Below are positions 30,713 through 38,240 of a stretch of DNA of 64,000 nt, piece after piece. The position numbers were made by a program, and so were the translations under genes. Position 1 is the first letter of the stretch, and each line of letters starts with the position of its first letter. Source of the stretch: Thermotoga profunda AZM34c06 (lineage in GTDB: Bacteria > Thermotogota > Thermotogae > Thermotogales > DSM-5069); contig NZ_AP014510.1 in the NCBI RefSeq assembly GCF_000828675.1, positions 1,135,413 to 1,199,412 of the forward strand. The letters run 5' to 3'. Under the pieces are notes generated by a model, which was not told the DNA's origin, made no database searches, and was given only the letters and a program-made list of their open reading frames with translations.

Positions 30713-30748
30713 GATGTAAAAAGACCACGCAGTTGTAAAAACTGCGTG
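30713..30748 (-). terminator. Rho-independent terminator of the secretin/chaperone operon
   Basis: CCACGCAGTT / AACTGCGTGG, a perfect 10-bp stem. On the minus strand it is followed by TCTTTTTAC, 27 bases after the stop at 30775. Confidence 0.88.
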
Positions 30749-30774
30749 GGATATAGCAAACTTGGCTATAGGGG

Positions 30775-31935
30775 TTAAAATCTAATGTTGAATCCGGCTA
30801 TGAGATATATCTTTCCATTCAATGAATATTCACCCCCAATTATTACGAAAACCCCATTGGTTATTTTTATCCTTCCGTCAAGCCAGATATTGATATCTGA
30901 ACTGTTATAGGCACCGAGTGTAATGGAAAAACTCTCAAAGTCAATTTGAGCGCCAACTTTCCACAGAGGTTCAACGAACTTCAGATCTGTCAAAGACAAT
31001 TTGAATGGATAGAATTCTGCGAACAATGTAAGCACATTGGAAATTTGTGAATAGTCAGATATGCCAAGTGCGATGTAAAAACCATTATCGTAGACAAATC
31101 TCACCCCGGCTCTCAAACCTTCTTTACCCACAGCGCTCTCGATTCCTACCATCATACTGAAAGGTACAATGATAAACCTTGACTGAAGCACTAATGAATC
31201 AATAATCCAAATTGAAGTACCTACTTCACCACTGAATTGAGAAAAATCAGTTCGGATAAATCCATAAACTTCACTTTCGTGATCAACGCTTGAAAAACTA
31301 AAAAGATTGGCAAATTCATCCATTCCTCCAACAAACACTATATTTTCTTTTGGTGGTTCATTTAGAAAAGATGATTTCACATATACTGCAAAATACTTCA
31401 TGCCATTCGGTGTCTTTACAGTTGCTAAGCAAATCGGTGAAAACTCTGAACCTATAAATAGTTCGTTATCCAGTAAGGTAGGATTGTATGGATCTGAAAT
31501 CACAATTTTTGTATCTACCTTTCCTTCGGTGATATTCACTGGAGTAAGCTCTATTCTGAGCCCTGCACCAGTTGTTGTACCAGTTTTAAGAGATAATTCA
31601 CTAACGCCTGCAAACAAAACCGCCGGTTTACCCAAGAGTGTGGAAACCCACGGTCGGGAATACATCTTTGTCTTTTCTTGTTTTGTTCCAACTTCGAAGG
31701 TTGCAGTGACAAAAGGAATTTTCACCAAAAGTTCCATGATAGATGGATCGTAAAGAATTCTGAATTCATAGGCAGATAGATCTGGTTTGTCCACATGAAG
31801 TTCTTTAAGATCGAATTTGTTTATGGTCTCGTCACTCAATTGAACTATTTCAAGTTGGTATATCACAACAGCTTGAGTAGCAAAGAGAAAAGAACAAAAT
31901 AAAAGCGCAGTGAGAATCAGTTTCAATCTCTTCAT
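30775..31935 (-). CDS. Exported barrel-like protein, last gene of the secretin operon
   Basis: A 386-aa protein with a signal peptide (1-19). The first half (to about 190) is beta-rich and soluble-looking. The second half is made of short amphipathic strands with alternating hydrophobic residues and ends in Phe (AGFNIRF), as outer-membrane barrels do. No family recognised. ATG 31935 follows GAGGAAGTG and comes 13 bases after the secretin stop. It may anchor or form part of the outer-membrane gate of the system; inference only. Confidence 0.7.
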   Translation of the reverse strand: MKRLKLILTALLFCSFLFATQAVVIYQLEIVQLSDETINKFDLKELHVDKPDLSAYEFRILYDPSIMELLVKIPFVTATFEVGTKQEKTKMYSRPWVSTLLGKPAVLFAGVSELSLKTGTTTGAGLRIELTPVNITEGKVDTKIVISDPYNPTLLDNELFIGSEFSPICLATVKTPNGMKYFAVYVKSSFLNEPPKENIVFVGGMDEFANLFSFSSVDHESEVYGFIRTDFSQFSGEVGTSIWIIDSLVLQSRFIIVPFSMMVGIESAVGKEGLRAGVRFVYDNGFYIALGISDYSQISNVLTLFAEFYPFKLSLTDLKFVEPLWKVGAQIDFESFSITLGAYNSSDINIWLDGRIKITNGVFVIIGGEYSLNGKIYLIAGFNIRF

Positions 31936-36748: not shown

Positions 36749-38017
36749 TTATACGTAGGCAGTCAGGTCGAATAATCCATGACCACTGAGGTTAAAAACT
36801 ATAACCTTTTGTGATTTTTCTTGTTTTGCTCTTTGTGCTTCTCTGATCGCACCGGCTATTGCATAAGAACTTTCTGGCGCGGGAACAATACCCTCTAATT
36901 TTGCAAAAAGTTTTGCCGCTTTGAAAACTTCTTCTTGATCTAATGCAATCGCTTCAACAAGATTTTCTTTCACCAATCTGGAGACTATCGGTGCTGCTCC
37001 ATGGTATCGAAGACCACCTGCGTGAATTTTTGGTGGAATGAAATCTTTTCCAAGTGTGTACATCTTTAAGAGTGGTGTCATACCAGCAGTATCTCCATAG
37101 TCATATTCGTAACGACCTTGAGTCAAAGATGGACATGCCGTTGGTTCACATGCCAAGAGTTTGATATCTTTTCCAGAAAGTTTATCCGGCACAAATGGCA
37201 AAACTGTGCCACCAAAATTTGAACCACCACCATGGCAACCAATAACCACATCTGGTTTTTCATTCAAGATCGCCAATTGCTTTTTAATTTCCAAACCTAT
37301 AACCGTTTGGTGCAAAAGAACGTGGTTTAGAACACTTCCAAGCGAATATTTTGTTTTTGCATCGGATAATGCGACTTCAATAGCTTCGCTAATTGCTATA
37401 CCAAGGCTCCCTGGCATATCACCGTTCTTTTCAAGCAAGGACTTACCAAAATTTGTACGATCACTCGGGCTTGGTACGACATCCCCACCAAAAAGCTTCA
37501 TCAAATATTTACGCATGGGCTTTTGTTCATAACTGATCTTCACCATGAAAACATTTACTGTCAAACCAAATTTGGCACCAGAATAACACAATGCACTTCC
37601 CCATTGACCTGCTCCAGTTTCGGTGACAAGCCTTTCTGTCCCAGAGATTTTGTTGTAATAAGCCTGAGCAAGAGCTGTATTTGTTTTATGGCTACCTGTG
37701 GGACTCGCACCTTCATACTTGTAATAAATTCTCGCTGGGGTCTGTAGAAATTCTTCAAGGTAAGTCGCTCTGAACAAAGGTGTTGGTCTAAAGACGGCAT
37801 ATTCTTCAAGAACTGGTTCTGGAATTGGAATTTCACGTTTGTCAGTAACTTCTTGCTCGATCAATGGCATTGGAAAAATTGCAGAAAGTGCATCTGGTGA
37901 CATAGGTTGTTTTGTTCTCGGATCCAAGGGAGGATCGAGTTTAAAAGGTAAATCAGCCAACACATTATACCAATGCCTTGGAATCTGGTCAACTTTCAAA
38001 TCCACCCTGATTCTCAT
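36749..38017 (-). CDS. trpB: Tryptophan synthase beta chain, TrpB2 type
   Basis: A 422-aa PLP enzyme that joins indole and L-serine to make L-tryptophan. It is the TrpB2 subtype: longer than TrpB1, with the N-terminal extension [20 protein letters not shown] and the block [11 protein letters not shown], where Lys111 binds [13 protein letters not shown] contacts the phosphate. TrpB2 usually works without TrpA, salvaging free indole or using O-phosphoserine. ATG 38017 follows AGGAGGTGG; GTG 38026 lies inside that site. No other trp gene is adjacent. Its leader contains a full Trp attenuator, which ties its role to tryptophan supply. Confidence 0.95.
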
Positions 38018-38044: not shown

Positions 38045-38076
38045 AAAAAAGGGGCTCTCTTTGTTAAGAGAGCCCC
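38045..38076 (-). terminator. Attenuator terminator in the trpB2 leader
   Basis: On the minus strand GGGGCTCTC (38076-38068), a loop, GAGAGCCCC (38059-38051), then TTTTTT (38050-38045). It stands 28 bases before the trpB2 start, within the leader. Confidence 0.93.
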
Positions 38077-38132
38077 AATTCGGTGTAATAAAACAAAAGT
38101 GGTACTACCCCACCGAATTGGGGCAGTACCAC
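38073..38132 (-). promoter_or_regulatory. Alternative pairing segments of the Trp attenuator
   Basis: Minus-strand GTGGTACT (38132-38125) pairs with AGTACCAC (38106-38099), extended inward by CCCCA/TGGGG: the 1:2 hairpin, which includes the Trp codons and the leader stop. CCCCAATTCGGTG (38123-38111) is exactly complementary to CACCGAATTGGGG (38085-38073): the 2:3 antiterminator, 13 bp, which takes the GGGG needed by the terminator. A ribosome stalled at the Trp codons would block 1:2 and allow 2:3. Confidence 0.9.
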
Positions 38133-38188
38133 CACCATTGATTATTGACAACTTCATTAACTACAGAGCTAATAGAAAATCTTCTCAA
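38105..38188 (-). CDS. trpL: Tryptophan leader peptide (27 aa)
   Basis: A short open frame starting TTG at 38188 and ending TAG at 38107-38105. The ribosome binding site AGAGGTG lies 8 bases upstream. The peptide begins MRRFSIS and ends QWWWYCPNSVG; the three Trp codons (38137-38129) are consecutive and lie at the base of the 1:2 hairpin, while the stop falls inside its second strand. This is the classic layout of a ribosome-mediated attenuator. An overlapping ATG frame on the same strand lacks a ribosome binding site. The peptide acts only as a sensor of charged tRNA-Trp. Confidence 0.9.
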   Translation of the reverse strand: MRRFSISSVVNEVVNNQWWWYCPNSVG

Positions 38189-38211
38189 AGTATTACACCT
38201 CTTTGCCTGTT

Positions 38212-38240
38212 ATATTACACCCAAGATAAAACAAAGTCAA
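38212..38240 (-). promoter_or_regulatory. Sigma-A promoter of trpL-trpB2
   Basis: Minus strand TTGACT (38240-38235), a 17-base spacer, TAATAT (38217-38212). Transcription should start near 38205, immediately before the leader-peptide ribosome binding site. Confidence 0.85.

Follow-up and report, generated by a model that had tools for sequence, protein, structure and literature searches.

A tryptophan-codon attenuator predicted ahead of stand-alone trpB2 genes in Thermotogota

What does a solitary trpB2 gene do in a genome in which the rest of tryptophan (Trp) synthesis goes unrecognised, and which signal governs it? The purpose of TrpB2 has been debated since its discovery, with indole rescue set against a role as serine deaminase. 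The locus considered here lies in a stretch of 64,000 nucleotides (the window, i.e., the whole stretch that was analysed) from the closed genome (2,187,612 bases) of Thermotoga profunda AZM34c06, which belongs to the genus Pseudothermotoga and is kept distinct here from Thermotoga proper. Based on our analysis, it is highly probable that a ribosome-mediated attenuator turns on this single-gene trpB2 when charged tRNA-Trp is scarce, and that TrpB2 then makes Trp with indole from neighbours. What the sequence shows is that the parts of this attenuator are present, conserved and covarying, that pathway genes are missing and that the motifs of the enzyme are intact.

Parts of the trpB2 locus

By family cut-offs, the window gene is classified as TrpB2 (COG1350 type). 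Its product scores 701 bits against NF009057 (cut-off 366) and 681 against TIGR01415 (cut-off 519), with only 154 bits against the TIGR00263 trpB model (cut-off 392), which places it closer to TrpB2 than to TrpB1. The best PDB matches are 6hul, 4qys and 6hte, and the catalytic motifs (the PLP lysine motif and SGHG) are intact. The gene is predicted to be monocistronic from its own terminator-like hairpin past the stop codon, with the next same-strand ORF starting 133 nt downstream, in agreement with a sequence-only reading of this DNA that had described a single-gene unit holding no other trp gene (Table 1). Elsewhere in the same genome (G000:C1:1952357-1952685, loci L002-L004), another trpB2-like gene survives as decayed fragments (63% and 46% identity), adjoining a truncated glycoside-hydrolase-like frame.

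Table 1. Features of the trpB2 locus, in window coordinates
Feature	Coordinates	Strand	Details
Promoter-like site TTGACT-17-TAATAT	38240-38212	-	-35 at 38240-38235; -10 TAATAT at 38217-38212; 9/12 consensus
Shine-Dalgarno AGAGGTG of leader ORF	about 38202-38196	-	from sequence
Leader peptide ORF MRRFSISSVVNEVVNNQWWWYCPNSVG	38188-38105	-	TTG start, 27 codons plus TAG stop
Control codons TGG-TGG-TGG (Trp-Trp-Trp)	38137-38129	-	from sequence; kept in relatives
Protector hairpin 1:2, GTGGTACTGCCCC / GGGGTAGTACCAC	38132-38099	-	spans second and third Trp codons and leader stop
Antiterminator 5' strand CCCCAATTCGGTG	38123-38111	-	13 perfect pairs with 3' strand
Antiterminator 3' strand CACCGAATTGGGG	38085-38073	-	GGGG common to terminator
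Intrinsic terminator GGGGCTCTCTT-AACA-AAGAGAGCCCC plus TTTTTT	38076-38045	-	stem/loop 38076-38051; T-run 38050-38045
trpB2, TrpB-like PLP enzyme, 422 aa	38017-36749	-	ATG at 38017; Shine-Dalgarno AGGAGGTGG
Terminator-like hairpin after trpB2, GGGGTGAG-TTTTG-CTCACCCC, TTTT	36736-36716	-	from sequence

The region between promoter-like site and gene holds the parts that the sequence-only reading had listed, with two corrections. Both the 27-codon length of the leader and its three consecutive Trp codons stand, with TTG as the start codon, and many relatives carry GAGGTG-type sites just 5' of their leader ORFs. Hairpin 1:2 had been described as holding the Trp codons, which is correct for the second and third, while the first lies outside: the predicted fold (15 pairs, z = -6.3) takes in 5 of the 9 Trp-codon bases. 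The perfect 13-bp antiterminator and the terminator with its six Ts were both recovered as described. Terminator-like sites in the leader region number 4, against 0.3 +/- 0.6 expected, and the whole leader folds with z = -7.6, with 0 of 200 shuffles equally good. The promoter upstream of the leader ORF is a candidate by consensus match; its sequence is present where it had been placed, though chance could account for the match on its own (5 such sites seen in a consensus scan vs. 2.8 +/- 1.6 expected), and its elements TTGACTTTGT...GTGTAATAT recur in one relative (L006).

A further pairing appears in the minimum free energy fold, where the Shine-Dalgarno region of the leader, GGUGUAAUA (38199-38191), is the perfect complement of UAUUACACC (38090-38082), beside the antiterminator 3' strand. 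As modelled, this pairing could block re-initiation on the leader; it shows one compensated change in L006 and is otherwise weakly conserved.

Conservation and switching of the leader

To ask how widely this arrangement is kept, we surveyed 103 Thermotogota genomes, which yielded 73 trpB2 loci (at least 58% identity). An upstream ORF in which three or more Trp codons follow one another (TGG three or four times) precedes trpB2 in 61 of these, a count that other leader layouts escape; the remaining 12 comprise one W-Y-W-W leader, 10 loci with no leader and one with too little upstream sequence. Since 61 of 73 loci share this run of codons, the tandem-Trp attenuator in front of trpB2 is judged from sequence not to be a chance feature. 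It is also not a general trait of trpB2, because only 3 of 72 loci outside Thermotogota show tandem Trp (L178 from Melioribacter, L183 from an actinobacterial MAG and, probably, L213). Among the Thermotogota loci we also observed two broken trpB2 genes, one with in-frame stops that retains its WWW leader (L072, genome G044) and one split by an apparent TnpB-type transposon gene (L073, genome G091).

Structure statistics were calculated on 60 leaders, L056 being excluded for a misplaced gene start. A terminator, with a competing antiterminator that overlaps its 5' arm, was found in all 60, and the Trp codons lie inside the protector hairpin in 57. The antiterminator core differs by clade (CCCCAATTCGGTG, CCCCCGATCTG, GGCAATTGTCC, CCCCTTTA, CCCTGATGCTG and others), and yet each strand matches its own partner: the mean pairing energy is -30.8 kcal/mol with the leader's own partner vs. 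-12.8 with the partners from dissimilar leaders. Against a null in which the spacer was shuffled and the whole selection repeated, the antiterminator has a median z of -3.8, with 58 of the 60 below -2. Within the 15 alignable leaders, two-sided changes occur in 6 of its 13 pairs and 91.8% of cells are paired (vs. 29-55% when slid), and the terminator stem shows two-sided changes in 4 of 11 pairs. For the 1:2 stem, nine close relatives give little alignment-based covariation, because the register shifts by one base between clades. Conservation of Trp codons and stems in relatives, on which the sequence-only reading had staked its interpretation, was thus checked across the phylum, and both are kept.

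These patterns also bear on two other readings of the leader. That it is a chance resemblance or a decaying relic has a vanishingly small probability: the promoter match, taken by itself, would fit such an origin, but the fold score of the whole leader and above all the phylum-wide conservation with covariation already refute it. It is likewise extremely unlikely that the leader peptide is a small regulator acting in trans, like peTrpL in Sinorhizobium. Such a trpL-derived peptide has precedent (PMC7298713), but the Trp run is constant in all 61 leaders while the N-terminal parts differ freely, and beyond WWW and the residues fixed by pairing both sequence and length (16-47 aa) vary.

The attenuator we propose would work as follows. 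When Trp-tRNA is ample, the ribosome would pass the three Trp codons and cover or release the leader, leaving the antiterminator 5' strand unavailable, so that the terminator ends transcription ahead of trpB2. When Trp-tRNA is scarce, the ribosome would stall at the first Trp codon and preclude hairpin 1:2, and the freed strand would form the 13-bp antiterminator, which precludes the terminator and lets trpB2 be transcribed. We modelled this by equilibrium folding of the transcript as synthesised through segment 3, with a mask standing for the ribosome. At 65 C, the predicted chance that the antiterminator captures the terminator 5' arm in this leader is 0.20 when ribosome-free, 0.99, 0.61 and 0.08 with a stall at the first, second and third Trp codon, respectively, and 0.22 with the ribosome at the stop codon; first-codon capture stays at 0.78-1.00 across footprints of +12 to +17 and temperatures of 37-75 C. 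In this model the leader works as a trpL switch that responds best to a stall at the first Trp codon; ribosome stalling and the response to Trp are what we infer.

Details vary between clades, since in some (e.g., L031-L034, L040, L041, L055) the leader stop lies further downstream, past the antiterminator strand, and the mask model fails to separate stall from stop. In addition, the untranslated leaders of many relatives are predicted to lean towards the antiterminator at equilibrium (median 0.91), so that their off state would have to be set by the ribosome or by the order of folding during transcription. This preference of the free RNA could be read as pointing to other control of the terminator and antiterminator (T-box sensing of tRNA, a TRAP-like protein or temperature), with the Trp-rich ORF incidental. 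We regard that as very unlikely, as a search against Rfam at E<=1 gave neither a T-box nor any other family for the region, and an incidental ORF is at odds with a reading frame that has a start codon, an unconserved N-terminal part and tandem Trp codons at 61 of 73 loci; in 57 of 60 leaders these codons fall within the protector hairpin. T-box, TRAP and other catalogued RNAs were accordingly rejected as candidates for the leader. Elsewhere in the window, a sub-threshold match to the manA-II motif (30719-30844, minus strand; 29 bits against a gathering score of 100, E 0.18) is probably due to chance.

Pathway loss and the aromatic regulon

Next, we searched the closed window genome for the families of Trp synthesis, and detected no TrpA (PF00290), no indoleglycerol-phosphate synthase (trpC, PF00218), no chorismate-binding TrpE/PabB (PF00425) and no trpB1. 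The PF00290, PF00218 and PF00425 searches each matched 14 of 14 control genomes, and absence by such searches is strong evidence for a closed genome and weaker for some of the draft genomes. A single PF00591 match, in a 439-aa frame, probably marks a nucleoside phosphorylase rather than TrpD. Because trpA, trpC, TrpE-type genes and trpB1 are unrecognised, TrpB2 is, by gene content, the sole detected Trp-synthesis enzyme of this genome.

Across the survey, 52 of 61 leader-bearing trpB2 genes sit in genomes without trpA and trpC, and 8 of 10 leaderless ones in genomes with both (Thermotoga-like genera), an association with a Fisher p of about 8e-5 that ignores relatedness, most leaderless cases being one clade. 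Two trpB2 genes (L047 and L048) count against the proposed reading, having no leader though their genomes are without trpA. In Thermotoga proper, the leader is absent at trpB2 as well as at the two trp operons inspected (L078 and L079); several trp operons of other families do have WWW leaders.

Leaders of this kind also precede other Trp genes in the phylum. We identified WWW leader ORFs at eight trpB1-containing loci (L077, L080, L081, L082, L085, L086, L087 and L090), several of them followed by a clear terminator, and WWW attenuators directly 5' of trpS (L119, G041:C3, and L120, G049:C4) and of an operon for a PF04392 ABC transporter (L121, G021:C87). Together with the absence of trpA, trpC, TrpE/PabB and trpB1, the identity of these genes (trp operons, trpS, a Trp-type ABC transporter) strengthens the proposal, made in the sequence-only reading, that TrpB2 serves Trp supply. 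Once switched on, TrpB2 would combine serine (or phosphoserine) with indole to give Trp, the indole being drawn from neighbours because the organism has no detectable pathway to it; that indole is the substrate in vivo is likewise something we infer.

The attenuator could instead be real and sense Trp-tRNA while the main reaction of TrpB2 is other than indole salvage, with a different nucleophile or amino acid substrate, or co-regulated removal of serine. The substrates of TrpB2 in Thermotogota are putative here, a paper cited in PMC11917138 (Busch 2014) calls TrpB2 enzymes O-phosphoserine-dependent in its title, and a serine deaminase role was formerly predicted (PMC1854888). We nevertheless consider a non-indole role unlikely, given that the signal is Trp, that no other Trp-synthesis gene is detected and that the fellow leader-controlled genes are Trp genes; moreover, TrpB2 of T. 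maritima deaminates serine poorly (PMC1854888), and a high affinity for indole has been described for TrpB2 proteins (PMC11917138). With a Trp-codon attenuator found phylum-wide on trpB2 and the pathway genes undetected, the cell would appear to treat TrpB2 as a Trp-supply enzyme, which is directly testable, and regulated cross-feeding of indole is predicted in hot communities.

Further leaders in the window genome (G000) were sought by pattern only, and within its family the leader pattern occurs solely at trpB2, coding-type matches aside. Outside the window, the same genome carries a PF04392 gene (G000:C1:22352-23230) preceded by a full attenuator (L136, about 23.2-23.5 kb) with the leader ...FSYAYWWFRG.... 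Attenuators of such PF04392 (TrpX-like) transporters (L123-L151) have leader peptides that mix aromatic residues, such as FAYAYWWFRG in Pseudothermotoga, FAYAYWFRR in locus group g27, YFYFWYWK in groups g30 and g34, and FYFYYFWW in G021, and a significant antiterminator accompanies 24 of the 24 mixed leaders tested in the phylum. This mixture of Phe, Tyr and Trp suggests that uptake may respond to the aromatic amino acids as a pool. We consider it moderately probable that Thermotogota have an ancestral, phylum-wide aromatic attenuation regulon, in which WWW leaders serve trpB2, trp operons, trpS and a Trp-type transporter while PF04392 transporters have mixed leaders. TrpB2 with its attenuator would then be the remnant in the many genomes without the pathway, and indole from neighbours would give these thermophiles a regulated source of Trp.

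Comparison with known systems

As judged from sequence, we are dealing with a ribosome-mediated trp attenuator, a known mechanism all of whose sequence-testable defining features were found here. Like E. coli trpL (Rfam Trp_leader, RF00513), the leader combines a tandem-Trp ORF, a protector hairpin, mutually exclusive antiterminator and terminator, and an intrinsic terminator immediately ahead of the gene. Unlike trpL, it has three Trp codons rather than two, a TTG start, and as its target one stand-alone salvage gene instead of a biosynthetic operon. The sequence-only reading had equated the two, and the switch itself bears this out, but the geometry differs, the antiterminator 5' strand being formed here by the top of the 5' arm and the loop of hairpin 1:2 rather than by its 3' arm. 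Despite the trpL-like working, the RF00513 covariance model finds no match in the leader at E<=1.

Classical attenuators outside Proteobacteria, with tandem UGG and trpS among the targets, are also proposed in Actinobacteria: candidates with double or triple UGG were reported in Corynebacterium and Streptomyces, some of them on trpS, including one in C. diphtheriae on an operon named trpB2A (PMC1262725). Unlike the stand-alone trpB2 here, these control operons containing trpA or trpE, or trpS, and the C. diphtheriae gene looks like a second ordinary trpB rather than a salvage gene of the TrpB2 family because, judging from the operon name, it is paired with trpA. T-box control, as at Trp genes of Firmicutes and in Dehalococcoides ahead of trpE and a 'trpB-like' gene (PMC2494555), likewise lets tRNA-Trp charging set the choice between terminator and antiterminator, but there the RNA itself recognises uncharged tRNA and needs no leader peptide; the Fusobacteria/Thermotogae row of that survey counts zero T-boxes.

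The stand-alone TrpB2 of T. maritima, proposed as an indole scavenger (Hettwer & Sterner 2002, as cited in PMC11917138), belongs to the same enzyme family as the window TrpB2. Unlike the window gene, trpB2 of Thermotoga proper is leaderless, runs directly into another gene downstream and occurs in genomes that also have a full trp operon; the absence of the leader from T. maritima's genus may explain why it was overlooked earlier.

Ribosome-mediated attenuation has been named for Proteobacteria and Actinobacteria, plus a Firmicutes case of the authors' own (PMC2965389), and a survey with 11 Thermotogales genomes included suggested that amino acid attenuators may stem from gamma-proteobacteria (PMC3766115). 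The open-access literature that we searched yielded no earlier report of a trp attenuator in Thermotogota. What looks new compared with these systems is the phylum, the control of one salvage gene on its own and the link to lost pathways, and our findings would extend ribosome-mediated attenuation to a phylum for which neither survey (PMC2965389, PMC3766115) reported such control.
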